The translations under genes were made by a program, and so were the position numbers. A model generated the notes under the pieces. The model did no database searches and was not told where the DNA came from. It worked only from the letters and a program-made list of their open reading frames with translations. A stretch of DNA of 64,000 nt from a virus, in the IMG/VR virus record IMGVR_UViG_3300028073_000008, positions 105,156 to 169,155 of that record; one strand, 5' to 3'. Below, piece after piece: positions 44,166 through 50,945 of the stretch. How positions within the stretch are numbered: the first letter of the stretch is position 1; each line of letters opens with the position of its first letter.

Positions 44166-44780
44166 ATGGCTAGTCTAGAACAAATCCAAGCTGCTTTCCC
44201 ACATGCTAATCCTAACAGAATAGCTGAACTATATGATGGATTCATGGAAGCATTTGAATTGTTTGAAATTAACACACCTTCAAGACAAGCTGCTTTCTTA
44301 GCGCAATGCGCACATGAAAGTGGCAACTTTAATGCTATGGTAGAAAATCTAAATTACTCAGCCGATGGTTTACAAAAGATTTTCCATAAGTATTTTCCAG
44401 ATTCAGAAATAGCAAGTCAATACGCTCGCAAACCAGAAATGATTGCCAACAGAGTGTATGCTAACAGAATGGGCAACGGTGACGAAGCCAGCGGAGATGG
44501 TTTCCGCTATCGTGGTCGTGGACTGATCCAAGTCACAGGCAAGAACAACTACAGAGCCTGTGGTGATGCTCTTGGTGCTGATTTATTATCAGAACCAGAT
44601 CTATTAGAAACATCCCCAGGCGCAGTACTATCAGCTGGTTGGTTCTGGGCTGCTAATGGGTTGAATGCCTACGCAGATGCCGGCGACATCCTAACAATGA
44701 CCAAACGTATCAATGGCGGCACTATTGGTCTAGAAGATCGCAAAAAGCATTACGAACACGCGATGCACGTTTTGGCATAA
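44166..44780 (+). CDS. Endolysin, glycoside hydrolase family 19
   Basis: A 204-residue GH19 (chitinase-like) muramidase that cuts peptidoglycan. The first catalytic Glu is Glu51 (AHESGNF) and the second acid lies in NGDEASGDGFRYRGRGLIQ (Glu107); GRGLIQVTGKNNY is the family signature. There is no signal peptide, so the holin at 32402 must release it. AAGGAA precedes the ATG. It lies 11 kb from the holin and spanins, so lysis genes are split. Confidence 0.93.
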   Translation: MASLEQIQAAFPHANPNRIAELYDGFMEAFELFEINTPSRQAAFLAQCAHESGNFNAMVENLNYSADGLQKIFHKYFPDSEIASQYARKPEMIANRVYANRMGNGDEASGDGFRYRGRGLIQVTGKNNYRACGDALGADLLSEPDLLETSPGAVLSAGWFWAANGLNAYADAGDILTMTKRINGGTIGLEDRKKHYEHAMHVLA

Positions 44781-44839: not shown

Positions 44840-45100
44840 ATGGCTAAAATTTACGGTCCCGAAGAAAAAGCAAAATTAGAACGTTTAATCGCAGAAGGTT
44901 CTAATGTTCTAAGAGAAGTAGAAGACCTACAAGAAGGTCTTAAAGAAACTGTCAAAGCTGTGGCAGAAGAACTCCAAGTAAAACCCAGCATCATCAACAA
45001 AGCTATACGTATCGCTCATAAGGGTAACTGGAAAGACCACGAATCTGAATGGGAAGAAATCGAAGGCATCCTCGGTGTTACTAAACATTTACCAGAATGA
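44840..45100 (+). CDS. DsbA-like dsDNA-binding transcription accessory protein
   Basis: An 86-residue helical protein resembling T4 DsbA, which binds late promoter regions. The shared pattern is a first acidic helix (LERLIAEGSNVLREVEDLQEGL), then AEELQVKPSIINKAIRIAHKGNW and an acidic ending. The assignment rests on this pattern and length. Its promoter and hairpin suggest controlled timing. It overlaps the membrane protein gene by four bases. Confidence 0.65.
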   Translation: MAKIYGPEEKAKLERLIAEGSNVLREVEDLQEGLKETVKAVAEELQVKPSIINKAIRIAHKGNWKDHESEWEEIEGILGVTKHLPE

Positions 45101-45387
45101 TAGATCTATTAAAACCCACATTCGATTGGATTAGGGATGACTGGTCTAGTCATCCTGTCCGCTTTGTGGTGGAGTTGTTTGCTTGGGCTATCAGCATATT
45201 TTGTAGTATCACGATGGCAGTCACTGTACCAAACCCGCCTCTTTTGGCTCTCTACCCTGTTTGGATTACTGGCTGTGCTCTGTATGCTTGGGCTGCTTGG
45301 ACTAGAAAAAGTTTCGGCATGTTGGCTAACTATATCTTGCTGACCAGTATCGATACTGTTGGCTTGATAAGAATGCTAACTAATTAA
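45097..45387 (+). CDS. Conserved phage membrane protein (96 aa, 2-3 TM)
   Basis: Hydrophobic segments lie at about residues 23-44, 49-68 and 74-92. DDWSSHPVRFVVELFAWAIS and TVPNPPLLALYP are conserved features I recognise from T4-like marine phages, where it often sits near gp43. No function is known. It would be inserted in the host inner membrane. Confidence 0.72.
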   Translation: MIDLLKPTFDWIRDDWSSHPVRFVVELFAWAISIFCSITMAVTVPNPPLLALYPVWITGCALYAWAAWTRKSFGMLANYILLTSIDTVGLIRMLTN

Positions 45388-45400
45388 TATAGATTACGGT

Positions 45401-45448
45401 TGATCAGCCATAAATGATCAGTTTGGTATTTGCCAGCCCTAAATGGCA
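45401..45448 (+). promoter_or_regulatory. Tandem hairpins before gp43, candidate translational operator
   Basis: Hairpin A: TGATCA (45401-45406), loop GCCATAAA, TGATCA (45415-45420). Hairpin B: TGCCA (45431-45435), loop GCCCTAAA, TGGCA (45444-45448). The stems differ but the eight-base loops match except at one position. Hairpin B touches the AGGAG of gp43. T4 gp43 represses its own mRNA by binding a five-bp stem with an eight-base loop at this same place. Confidence 0.65.
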
Positions 45449-45459
45449 TAGGAGAATTG

Positions 45460-48132
45460 ATGAGTTACGTTGACGCTTTGTACAGCAGAGATTCTGATCT
45501 TGTAAGTATCGTAGAACGAGATAAAGAAGGTCGCAGACAATATAAAGAATTTCCTGCTAGATATATTTTCTATTATCCAGATACTAGAGGCAAGTATACC
45601 AGTGTGTACGGTGACACACTAAACAGAGTTACTTGTAAGAACCTCAAAGAATTCCACAAAGAAATAAAGATACACGGTAGCCAACGGCTATTTGAATCCG
45701 ACATCAATCCTATATTCCGATGCCTAGAAGAAAATTATCTAGGACAAGATGCTCCAAAATTGAATGTAGCATTTTTCGACATCGAAGTCGATTTCGATCC
45801 TGAACGCGGTTACGCATCGCCTGAAGATGCTTTCATGCCTATCACTTCTATCGCTATACATCTACAATGGTTAGATACACTAGTCTGTTTGGCTGTGCCT
45901 CCAAAAACGATGTCTATGGCCGAAGCTACAGAAGCTGTTAAAGAATTCCCTAATACATATCTCTTCGAAACTGAAGCGGAGATGTTAGACAACTTTCTAA
46001 CTCTTATTGAAGACGCAGACGTTATCAGTGGTTGGAACAGCGAAGGATATGATATTCCCTATACTGTTAATCGTGTTACCAAAGCATTAAGCAAAGAAGA
46101 TACTCGCAGATTCTGCCTTTGGGATCAGTTTCCCAAAAAGCGCGAATATGAAAAGTTTGGTAAGACCGCAGTTACATACGACTTCATCGGTCGTGTACAT
46201 CTAGACAGTCTAGAACTTTATAGAAAATATACCTACGAAGAACGCCACACCTATAGATTAGATGCTATCGGTGAGATGGAAATCGGAGAAAACAAAACTG
46301 TCTATGAAGGCACACTAGATCAATTGTATAACAACGACTTCCGTAAGTTTATCGAATACAATAGACAAGACTGTGCGTTGTTAGATAAACTTGATAAAAA
46401 ACTAAAATTTATCGATCTAGCCAATCAGATCGCACATGAAAATACTGTGTTGCTACAGACCACTATGGGTGCTGTAGCTGTTACTGAACAGGCTATTATT
46501 AACGAAGCACACCGCAGAGGCATGATCGTGCCCAACAGAGCCAATAGAGATTCACACGGCGATACACAGGCTGCTGGTGCGTATGTAGCATATCCAAAGA
46601 AGGGTATAGCAGAATGGATTGGATCAGTTGACATTAACTCACTGTATCCGTCTGCTATTCGTGCTCTAAACATGGGTCCAGAAACAGTGATAGGACAGTT
46701 GCGTCCAGATTATACCAAAGCCTATATTGACGAGCAGATGGTACGTCACGGTAAGTCATTTGCCGCAGCTTGGGAAGGACTTTTCGGAACATTAGAATAC
46801 GAATTTGTAATGGATCGAAATGTCGCTAAAGAAATCACTATCGACTGGGAAAAGGGCGGCAGTGACACGCTCTCAGGAGCCCAAATTAATGATCTCATAT
46901 TTGATAGCAACCAACCGTGGATGTTGTCAGCTAATGGTACTATCTTTACATATGAAAAAGAAGGTGTAATACCAGGTCTGCTAAAACGCTGGTATGCTGA
47001 ACGTAAAGAACTACAGGCCAAATTAAAAGAAAGTATTGCCGCAGGTAATAAGATTGAAGAAGAATACTGGGACAAACGACAGCTGGTCAAGAAGATTAAC
47101 TTGAATAGTTTGTATGGTGCTATTCTTAACGTTGGCTGTAGATTCTTTGATCCGCGCATAGGACAATCTACTACACTCAGTGGTCGTACTATCGTGAAAC
47201 ATATGGCTAGTAAGATCAACGAAATTATTACAGGTGAATATGACTACAAGGGCAAAGCTATCATCTACGGCGACACCGACTCTTGTTATTTTTCCGCATA
47301 CAATGTTCTCAAGAAAGAAATCGAATCTGGTCAGATTCCTTGGACTAAAGAAACTGTAATACAGCTATATGATCAGATAGCAGAAGAAACTAATCTTAGC
47401 TTTGCTAAGATGATGAACGAAAAATTCCATTGTCCAAAGACACGCGGCGAAGTCATACGTGCTGGTCGTGAAATCGTAGCATCAAAAGGATTGTTTATTA
47501 CCAAGAAACGTTATGCTGTTCTTTATTACGACAAGGAAGGCAAACGATCTGATGTTGACGGCAAGCCTGGCAAGATCAAAGCTATGGGGCTGGATCTTAA
47601 GCGTTCAGATACTCCTGTAATCATTCAGAACTTTCTAAGCGAAGTATTAGAAAAAGTTCTTAAAGGTACTGACAGAGATGAAATCCTAAACTTTATCACG
47701 GAGTTTAGGACTGAGTTTAAATTAAGACCTGGTTGGGAGAAAGGATCGCCCAAGCGAGCCAATAACATAACAGAATATCAAGCCAAAGAAAAGAAAGCAG
47801 GCAAAGCTAATATGCCAGGACATGTGCGAGCCAGTATCAATTGGAATACTCTCAAACGCATGTATGGTGACAAGTATTCTATGAATATCACCGATGGTGC
47901 CAAAGTTATTGTGTGTAAGTTAAAAGAAAATCCCATGGGATATACTTCTGTAGCTTATCCGGTAGACGAACTTAGACTACCATCGTGGTTCAAAGAATTA
48001 CCATTCAATGACGGTGAGATGGAAAATGCCGTCATAGATGAAAAACTAGAAAATTTGATCGGTGTGCTAGAGTGGGACATCAGTCAGACTAGAAGCGATA
48101 ACACCTTTAACTCGCTTTTTGATTTTGAATAA
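45460..48132 (+). CDS. 43: Family B DNA polymerase gp43
   Basis: The replicative polymerase with 3'-5' exonuclease. Exonuclease motifs: FDIE (106-109), WNSEGYDIPY (192-201), YNRQDCALLD (300-309). Polymerase motifs: DINSLYPS (391-398), KKINLNSLYGA (544-554) and YGDTDSCY (603-610). No intein or split is present, giving 890 residues. The start at 45460 is chosen because AGGAGAA lies just upstream; the frame extends ten codons to a TTG at 45430 lying inside hairpin B. It would work with the gp45 clamp encoded next. Confidence 0.97.
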   Translation: MSYVDALYSRDSDLVSIVERDKEGRRQYKEFPARYIFYYPDTRGKYTSVYGDTLNRVTCKNLKEFHKEIKIHGSQRLFESDINPIFRCLEENYLGQDAPKLNVAFFDIEVDFDPERGYASPEDAFMPITSIAIHLQWLDTLVCLAVPPKTMSMAEATEAVKEFPNTYLFETEAEMLDNFLTLIEDADVISGWNSEGYDIPYTVNRVTKALSKEDTRRFCLWDQFPKKREYEKFGKTAVTYDFIGRVHLDSLELYRKYTYEERHTYRLDAIGEMEIGENKTVYEGTLDQLYNNDFRKFIEYNRQDCALLDKLDKKLKFIDLANQIAHENTVLLQTTMGAVAVTEQAIINEAHRRGMIVPNRANRDSHGDTQAAGAYVAYPKKGIAEWIGSVDINSLYPSAIRALNMGPETVIGQLRPDYTKAYIDEQMVRHGKSFAAAWEGLFGTLEYEFVMDRNVAKEITIDWEKGGSDTLSGAQINDLIFDSNQPWMLSANGTIFTYEKEGVIPGLLKRWYAERKELQAKLKESIAAGNKIEEEYWDKRQLVKKINLNSLYGAILNVGCRFFDPRIGQSTTLSGRTIVKHMASKINEIITGEYDYKGKAIIYGDTDSCYFSAYNVLKKEIESGQIPWTKETVIQLYDQIAEETNLSFAKMMNEKFHCPKTRGEVIRAGREIVASKGLFITKKRYAVLYYDKEGKRSDVDGKPGKIKAMGLDLKRSDTPVIIQNFLSEVLEKVLKGTDRDEILNFITEFRTEFKLRPGWEKGSPKRANNITEYQAKEKKAGKANMPGHVRASINWNTLKRMYGDKYSMNITDGAKVIVCKLKENPMGYTSVAYPVDELRLPSWFKELPFNDGEMENAVIDEKLENLIGVLEWDISQTRSDNTFNSLFDFE

Positions 48133-49032: not shown

Positions 49033-49420
49033 AAATATTACTACCAACAGCCGTTACTTAAATGTACAAGGCGGTTCTCCTATGAGCACATATATCAGTC
49101 CAGGCAGTTTGTCTGCTGGTTCTCTAAGATACAATCCGAATAATTCGGCCGTAGAAGTCTATGACGGAAATTCATGGAAAGAAATGGGTATGAGCTATGC
49201 CAGCGTGAATCTTTCTTCAGAAGCAGAAGCATTGCTGGATTGGGCACGTCAGAGACGCAACGAAGAACAAGAATATGAACGGTTGGCTTCTACTAATCAA
49301 GCTGTTAAAATAGCTATGGAGAATGTAGAAAAAGCCAAACAACAATTAACAATAACAGCAAAACTAGCCAAAGATACATATCACGATCATGGCGAAGTTA
49401 TGGAACAGGCAAGCCCTTAA
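49025..49420 (+). CDS. Conserved phage protein, structural-like N-terminus and coiled coil (131 aa)
   Basis: The ATG at 49025 follows AAAGGTGA and is preferred to a longer frame from 48995. The N-terminal half (SPGSLSAGSLRYNPNNSAVEVYDG, NSWKEMG) resembles small beta modules of virion proteins, while residues 65-115 form a long helix. No function recognised. Confidence 0.7.
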   Translation: MIKNITTNSRYLNVQGGSPMSTYISPGSLSAGSLRYNPNNSAVEVYDGNSWKEMGMSYASVNLSSEAEALLDWARQRRNEEQEYERLASTNQAVKIAMENVEKAKQQLTITAKLAKDTYHDHGEVMEQASP

Positions 49421-49421
49421 T

Positions 49422-50945
49422 ATGAACCCACCAGTCAACTTAACACCTTTACAAAAAGATTACGCAGTATATCTGCCAGCTATCAGCTGTTTCTTTAGCA
49501 CGTATATCAGTAAACAACGTTTCGAACAATTCGTTCCCGACGATCGTATTCCACAAGGTTTCGATCGTGGTATCGAAGGTATGAACTTTCTTAATCCTGA
49601 ACAAGGGTACTTTACTTACAAGTATGGTCTTTATTCCGCAGGACATGCTACACTAGATCTTAACAAGACTATGACCATGGATGCGATGATCCAAGATCGC
49701 GATCGTGCTAACACTGTTATCGTTGGAGATTCCGGTGGATATCAGATTGGTAAAGGTGTTCTTAAGTTTGACTGGCAGAACTTTGAAGGCAAGGCTGCTA
49801 ATGATGTTCGTGATAAGATCCTTAATTGGCTAGAGCTAACTGCTGATTGGTCTATGTTGCTAGACGTTCCGACATGGGCTTGTGATCATATACACAGTCC
49901 AAAGACAGGTCTTAAGAGCTTCCAAGACTGTTTAGATAAAACTCTACATAATAACGATTACTTTATCCGTAATCGACTAGGACAAACTAAGTTTCTAAAC
50001 GTGTTACAAGGCAGCGACTGGGAAACAGCCGATGCTTGGTATCAGGCTGTCAAACATCTTCCTACCGAAGGTTGGGCGATGGGTGGTAAGAACATGTGCG
50101 ACATGGAAATCGCACTTAAACGTCTTATCATATTGCGAGATGAAAAGCTGTTAGACGATCGTAATTGGATGCACTTCTTGGGTACAGCCCAATTAGATTG
50201 GTCTTGCTATTTGACTTCTATTCAAAGACAGATTAGGAAGAACGTAAATGAAAACTTTACCATATCTTTTGATTGCGCATCACCGTTTATCGCAACAGCA
50301 CACGGGCTCGTCTACACAAACGCACAGCACACAAACAAACGCTGGTCAGTTATCATGGACAAAGCCCCAGACAACAAAGCCCTTAGCCAGGCTTTTCATG
50401 TCCCGTTCCCCTTCGAATCAGAAATAGGACGCAGGCTGTCAATCGGAGACATCTGCTGGTACAAACCAGGTATGTTAAACAAAGTCGGCAAAGAAGGCAA
50501 GACAAGCTGGGACAGCTTTGGTTATGCGCTTATGATGGCACATAACACATATTGCCATATCGTTGCTGTACAACGTGCTAACAATCTCATGGATATCGAA
50601 ACTAAGAAGATACAGCCTGATTGGAAACTATGGCGTAAGGTCAAAGAAAACGATATGAGCGATGAATACTCTGATTGGGTTCCTCGCAATATCCTGTATT
50701 TTGATAGATTTGTCGAAGAGTTATTCAAATCAGAAACTCCGATGCAGATGATCGAACAGGCAAGACCTATGCTCAATGACATGATGGGTATGAGATTGAA
50801 AGGTGGTGTTGCTAAGAACACATACAATTCGCTGTTTGAAGAAGATCAAAAAACAGGAACAGTAGAAGACTTCATGGATCCAAATGATGAAGCACTTTTG
50901 GAATTAGAAGAACTCTATCACGAGCAGGAGGCTCAGCATGTATGA
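49422..50945 (+). CDS. dpdA: DpdA-like DNA 7-deazaguanine transglycosylase
   Basis: A TGT-fold protein of about 507 residues. DSGGYQ (103-108) is the nucleophile/base-recognition motif of tRNA-guanine transglycosylases, and FDCASPF (283-289) holds the second catalytic Asp; VLQGSD and AMGGKN occupy the other TGT positions. Phage members of this family swap guanine for 7-deazaguanine bases in DNA, blocking host restriction. The tRNA-binding zinc motif of bacterial TGT is not seen. The start at 49422 abuts the upstream stop; an ATG at 49389 adds 11 residues. FolE, QueD and QueE in the window can supply precursor. Confidence 0.85.
   Translation: MNPPVNLTPLQKDYAVYLPAISCFFSTYISKQRFEQFVPDDRIPQGFDRGIEGMNFLNPEQGYFTYKYGLYSAGHATLDLNKTMTMDAMIQDRDRANTVIVGDSGGYQIGKGVLKFDWQNFEGKAANDVRDKILNWLELTADWSMLLDVPTWACDHIHSPKTGLKSFQDCLDKTLHNNDYFIRNRLGQTKFLNVLQGSDWETADAWYQAVKHLPTEGWAMGGKNMCDMEIALKRLIILRDEKLLDDRNWMHFLGTAQLDWSCYLTSIQRQIRKNVNENFTISFDCASPFIATAHGLVYTNAQHTNKRWSVIMDKAPDNKALSQAFHVPFPFESEIGRRLSIGDICWYKPGMLNKVGKEGKTSWDSFGYALMMAHNTYCHIVAVQRANNLMDIETKKIQPDWKLWRKVKENDMSDEYSDWVPRNILYFDRFVEELFKSETPMQMIEQARPMLNDMMGMRLKGGVAKNTYNSLFEEDQKTGTVEDFMDPNDEALLELEELYHEQEAQHV

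Follow-up and report, generated by a model that had tools for sequence, protein, structure and literature searches.

Translational operators of T4-type replication genes

In phages T4 and RB69 the DNA polymerase gp43 represses its own translation through a hairpin in the mRNA leader, and T4 gp32 does so through a leader pseudoknot (PMC3014915, PMC535899). For the T4-type gene 43 site a review sees no evidence for a pseudoknot, and no structure of a gp43-RNA complex was available to it (PMC3014915). The gene 32 operator of T4, T2 and RB69 is a single H-type knot of about 28 nt, located about 67 nt upstream, with UUAAA repeats after it to which the SSB binds cooperatively (PMC3014915, PMC535899).

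By gene and position the leader described here works like the T4 gene 43 operator, while by fold it resembles that of T4 gene 32. With the gene 43 operator of T4, RB69 and RB49 it shares the gene, a leader adjoining the ribosome binding site (RBS), a hairpin with an eight-base loop and the polymerase family. It differs in being tandem and pseudoknotted, where those phages have a single hairpin, in having stems (stem 1, S1, included) that covary freely, and in its loop, which follows RCYNNAAN and not the AAUAACUC of T4 and RB69, the UAAC/UAAA core not being kept. With the gene 32 pseudoknot it shares the small H-type fold and the location in the leader of a T4-type replication gene; unlike there, the gene is gp43 and not that of an SSB, two knots are present of which the second abuts or contains the Shine-Dalgarno sequence (SD), and UUAAA/UAAA repeats are absent. 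Because the defining features of both systems failed (the loop and single hairpin of one, the gene and UUAAA repeats of the other), the element is placed as a probable translational operator of a phage replication gene that is a member of neither.

Organization of the gp43 locus

The window, that is, the whole 64 kb stretch of DNA that was analyzed, from an uncultivated T4-like phage, encodes a T4-type family B DNA polymerase of 890 aa (gp43) starting with the ATG at 45460. The stop codon of the preceding ORF (45097-45387, 96 aa) is followed by a 72-nt leader which is filled by two hairpins, TGATCA[GCCATAAA]TGATCA (loop 45407-45414) and TGCCA[GCCCTAAA]TGGCA (loop 45436-45443). The features of the locus, all on the + strand, are as follows.

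45388-45459, +, 5' leader of 72 nt between the stop codon of the upstream ORF (45387) and gp43
45398-45419, +, pseudoknot 1 (upstream); sequence, covariance model score of 24.9 bits, S1/S2 variation in relatives
Pseudoknot 1, S1: GGU 45398-45400 with GCC 45407-45409; L1: U 45401
Pseudoknot 1, S2: GAUCA 45402-45406 with UGAUC 45415-45419, extension to U45401-A45420 possible
Pseudoknot 1, L3: AUAAA 45410-45414
45425-45448, +, pseudoknot 2 (at the RBS); sequence, model match of 26.1 bits, S1/S2 covariation
Pseudoknot 2, S1: GGU 45425-45427 with GCC 45436-45438; L1: AUU 45428-45430
Pseudoknot 2, S2: UGCCA 45431-45435 with UGGCA 45444-45448
Pseudoknot 2, L3: CUAAA 45439-45443
45450-45454, +, AGGAG (Shine-Dalgarno sequence), separated by one nucleotide from the 3' end of pseudoknot 2
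45460-48132, +, gp43; Pfam PF00136 and PF03104, phrog_262, RB69 gp43 structures (E 2e-62, residues 21-835)

Upstream neighbors include a DsbA-like transcriptional regulator (44840-45100, PF11126) and a GH19 chitinase-like ORF (44166-44780), a possible endolysin. Downstream of gp43 lies an ORF of 518 aa (49389-50945) with a DSGGYQ-like motif which, by eye, recalls tRNA-guanine transglycosylase (TGT)/DpdA; it gave zero Pfam, PHROGs or NCBIfam matches and was found in 9 of 10 related large records, sometimes as two pieces.

The initial annotation had described two consecutive hairpins with unrelated stems and similar loops, the second at the gp43 RBS, and both are present as described. Hairpins with an 8-nt loop and 5 or more Watson-Crick pairs number 113 on each strand of the window; those of the gp43 leader are the only two which lie no more than 80 nt apart and have loops differing at no more than 3 positions.

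Tandem H-type pseudoknots are a better description of the two hairpins. GGU stands 5' of each (45398-45400 and 45425-45427) and is complementary to the GCC which opens the loop; since this triplet is part of the element, the latter begins at 45398 and is slightly larger than first stated. The order of the parts (GGU, 1-3 nt, 5' arm of the stem, GCC, NNAAN, 3' arm) is that of an H-type pseudoknot. Each knot comprises about 24 nt, with an S1 of 3 bp, an L1 of 1-3 nt, an S2 of 5 bp and an L3 of 5-6 nt with terminal AA. In this geometry a short L1 would pass over the deep groove of S2 and an A-containing L3 over S1, and as L2 is absent stacking of the two helices is possible. The distance from the proximal knot to the ATG is just 11 nt (TAGGAGAATTG). 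The folding energy of the leader was unremarkable and not significant alone (z = -1.14), so that the case for the element is based on conservation.

Conservation of the leader in related phages

Eighty close relatives (78-100% identity) were obtained from IMG/VR. Both sites upstream of gp43 are kept in 80/80, with different and compensated stems; in a few of them the upstream stem is weak, with about 3 pairs. A GG-pyrimidine triplet (AGU once) precedes the stem of either site by 1-3 nt, irrespective of the stem sequence, and the complement of the triplet forms the first three bases of the loop.

Further relatives were collected through four more IMG/VR scans and one gene-blind pattern scan. 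The resulting 505 loci with a located gp43 start reduced to 343 distinct leaders, 340 of which were put in a tree. An RBS-proximal knot is present in 261 of the 340 leaders, 79 have no knot at the RBS, and the gp43 tree shows a minimum of 26 changes in presence. All of these counts are approximate: L115, L486 and L488, which carry a knot at the RBS, are true cases that the detection rule overlooks. Variability is greater in the upstream than in the proximal element. Since many deeper relatives do not have such a leader, control by this route is dispensable. A related polymerase was present in only three fragments among the GTDB genomes, for which reason no host was assigned.

Covariation of S2 and S1

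For S2, RBS-proximal units were anchored on the triplet and loop only, S2 not being demanded. This gave 187 units, 182 of which have at least 4/5 S2 pairs; the remaining five have a 9-nt loop. As a control, arms re-paired at random gave 5/5 S2 pairs in 32% of draws. The two most variable pairs, 2 and 3, show about 16-24 tree-independent compensatory double changes per base class with 0 contrary, and independent-pair tests on the gp43 protein tree gave p values of about 1e-7 to 3e-5; one rarer base class offered only four independent comparisons, all compensatory. Stem covariation, which the initial annotation had proposed to look for in relatives, is thus borne out, and free loops on fixed stems were not seen.

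For S1, hairpins were detected by S2 alone. An RGY triplet pairing with RCY of the loop is found in 94 of the 96 distinct units, the first position always being G..C or A..T, and the two exceptions are hairpins in unrelated leaders. A single-architecture alignment of 63 rows has every S1 cell paired (first pair GC in 50 and AU in 13; third pair UG, CG or UA), and its S1 covariation exceeded all 500 shuffles and all slid controls. These 63 rows were chosen for units starting with [AG]G[TC], and the S2-only detection is the less biased statement. Because MAFFT did not align GGU across L1 of differing length when knot types were mixed, pairs were counted from units of the same L1 only and the other architectures were handled by script.

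The S1 variants observed are GGU:GCC, GGC:GCC, GGU:ACC, AGU:GCU and AGC:GCU. In the proximal knot the exchange of G-C and A-U involves three independent double changes on the tree, 3/3 of them compensatory. The corresponding exchange in the upstream knot of the window-type clade is compensatory in 2/3 independent comparisons, the third probably being a misassigned triplet. In a sister clade (L187 type) the upstream knot has an S1 of the form NGUC:GACN (AGUC:GACU, UGUC:GACA or GGUC:GACC), the fourth pair being AU, UA or GC in 4, 4 and 2 leaders, respectively, and each side has changed four times. S1 by itself stays below significance in the sign test owing to the 3-bp stem and the few independent double changes. 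A role of the conserved GGU as a protein contact and not a pairing partner was considered and rejected, as GGU changes in step with the loop.

Conservation of the loop

The loop consensus is RCYNNAAN. Positions 4 and 5 are free, with 62 inferred changes each, and position 8 is mostly A or G. C2, A6 and A7 are the only invariant bases, an invariance that is partly due to selection since all three were detection anchors. Positions 1 and 3 change in step with the upstream RGY triplet, as expected of stem 1 of a pseudoknot. The loop is kept mainly through pairing and not through whole-loop reading by a protein; the loop constancy noticed in the initial annotation is largely that of S1. Its tandem element with different stems and a kept loop stands as to the tandem arrangement, the compensated stems, the placement at the RBS and the dedication to gp43, and only in part as to the loop.

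These data bear directly on the version given there, in which gp43 reads the eight-base loops of two plain hairpins as in T4 and RB69. The gene, the position and the eight-base loop are the same, and the loops in the window contain UAAA as reported for RB49 (PMC3014915). With positions 4 and 5 free, UAAA is not kept, and the covariation of positions 1 and 3 with the triplet argues against a loop selected as such, so that this version is very unlikely. The likeness to the T4/RB69 operator holds for the gene and the RBS placement and fails for the loop.

Occurrence of the element outside the gp43 leader

The DNA pattern of the proximal knot was scanned over all viral contigs in a gene-blind manner. 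Among the matches listed were 116 new loci, 113 of which have gp43 directly downstream. Covariance model R1, a model of the S2 hairpin, matched the two leader copies and nothing else in the phage's own 169-kb record. Across 16 large records (2.6 Mb), every match of at least 20 bits whose context was checked was a gp43 leader, and the weaker matches inspected were in or antisense to coding sequence, except for upstream-knot partners. The element is absent from T4, RB69, RB49 and six nearer cultured phages, where only chance matches occurred, and gp43 orthologues around 45-50% identical are found in cultured phages without it. Vibrio phage 2.275.O gave a 22.8-bit model match, which falls within coding sequence and was taken as chance. 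The tandem knots are conserved across hundreds of related phages and almost nowhere else.

This dedication to one gene bears on the possibility that another phage or host protein binds the knots, for example a phage gp32-like SSB or an unknown RNA-binding protein. T4 gp32 recognizes a pseudoknot (PMC535899), and weak gp32-like matches were obtained in four related records. If the repressor were a shared one, however, the element should occur at several genes, and it is on gp43 only. RegA, the general repressor of T4, was not found in six records, the T4 positive control being detected. Binding by another protein is considered improbable.

No similarity to phage records was found at the DNA level with a 1-kb query, and the leader gave only chance matches of 18-23 nt. 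Rfam 15 (preQ1-I included) gave zero matches at gathering score in the window and seven related loci, and a permissive scan of the leader alone gave chance-level matches only. The fold itself, H-type with an A-containing L3 near the RBS, resembles preQ1-I and SAM-II riboswitches, of which tandem forms are known, and a tandem small-molecule riboswitch of that style might sense a nucleotide or a 7-deazaguanine precursor, given that the ORF judged TGT-like by eye lies downstream in the nine large records mentioned above. In contrast to these riboswitches, the leader has no Rfam match, its invariant bases are too few for a conserved ligand pocket, the gene under control encodes a DNA polymerase, and one related record (G009) has the knots without the TGT-like gene; a riboswitch is the remotest of the explanations weighed.

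A literature search, in which few subscription papers were covered, returned no published description of such a tandem-pseudoknot gp43 leader, which is undescribed as far as could be checked.

Variant leaders and intervening ORFs

In a sister clade (L239 type) the 3' arm of S2 incorporates the SD, CCG[GCCATAAA]CGGAG. In this clade (leaders L203-L239 and L432-L511) a plain hairpin takes the place of the upstream knot; its sequence is GCTC[ACGTTAC]GAGC or a compensated variant, with GAGTC before it and ATGAATCA or ATGTAGAA after it. L275 (reverse strand, from 3345), the gp43 of which is only 45% identical, has just one pseudoknot, the proximal one, and before it a terminator-like hairpin followed by a run of T.

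A few leaders carry an ORF between the knot and gp43, and the knot is always at the RBS of the first ORF. Seven of these ORFs are Cys-rich, encode 50-66 aa and overlap the gp43 start as ATGA (L250, L258, L259, L277, L359, L362 and L374); the two tested had no Pfam match. An HNH-endonuclease-like ORF (Pfam HNH_3, PF13392) lies between pseudoknot and gp43 in L472, an arrangement reminiscent of a homing gene inserted after the putative operator, and in L264 and L335 the intervening ORF encodes 204 aa without a Pfam match. Most intervening ORFs overlap gp43 (ATGA). That the knot accompanies the first ORF fits control of the translation of a small unit ending in gp43.

Such arrangements are relevant to control by the RNA alone, in which the knots would hold initiation at a constant low rate, work as a thermosensor or protect the 5' region of the mRNA from decay without a trans-acting protein. 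This agrees with a knot that touches or includes the SD and with the small number of invariant bases that a ligand could read. Two knots of the same design, the invariant AA of L3 and the near-perfect dedication to one gene nevertheless exceed the needs of a fixed brake, for which any stem would suffice, and the coupled ORFs suggest a regulated and not a fixed output. RNA-only control is unlikely, though it heads the ranking of alternatives; next come binding by another protein, then plain loop reading and, last, a riboswitch.

Proposed mode of regulation

The data above establish the two knots, their covariation, their location at the RBS and their dedication to gp43. With moderate confidence, the gp43 leader is regarded as a translational operator that consists of two pseudoknots in tandem and controls gp43, most likely autogenously. 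The position of the knots, and an SD inside S2, point to translational repression as the effect. The self-repression of the gp43 of T4, RB69 and RB49, together with the dedication of the element to this single gene, suggests gp43 as the ligand. The leader is probably a switch limiting the amount of polymerase. In the unbound mRNA the short S1 helices would be marginal and the ribosome able to load. When free gp43 exceeded its DNA substrate, it would bind the knots and lock them; the locked proximal knot would cover the SD region and further gp43 synthesis would stop. The upstream knot may contribute affinity or cooperativity.

A wider proposal is about as likely to be right as wrong, namely that these leaders form a new cis-regulatory RNA family, in which the replicative DNA polymerase itself binds tandem H-type pseudoknots. 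This pseudoknot-based autoregulation of the polymerase would be kept in several clades of large uncultivated T4-like phages, with a replaceable S1 (GGU:GCC, GAGU:GCUC, NGUC:GACN) and a polymerase that would read the shape and two adenines and not the loop sequence.

The covariance model provides a marker for the gp43 leaders of this phage's clade. If the proposed operator is correct, it would be a second, tandem and widely conserved case, on the polymerase gene, and phages would have reached pseudoknot control more than once; the leaders would also offer a large natural set of compensated variants for asking how a family B polymerase recognizes RNA.
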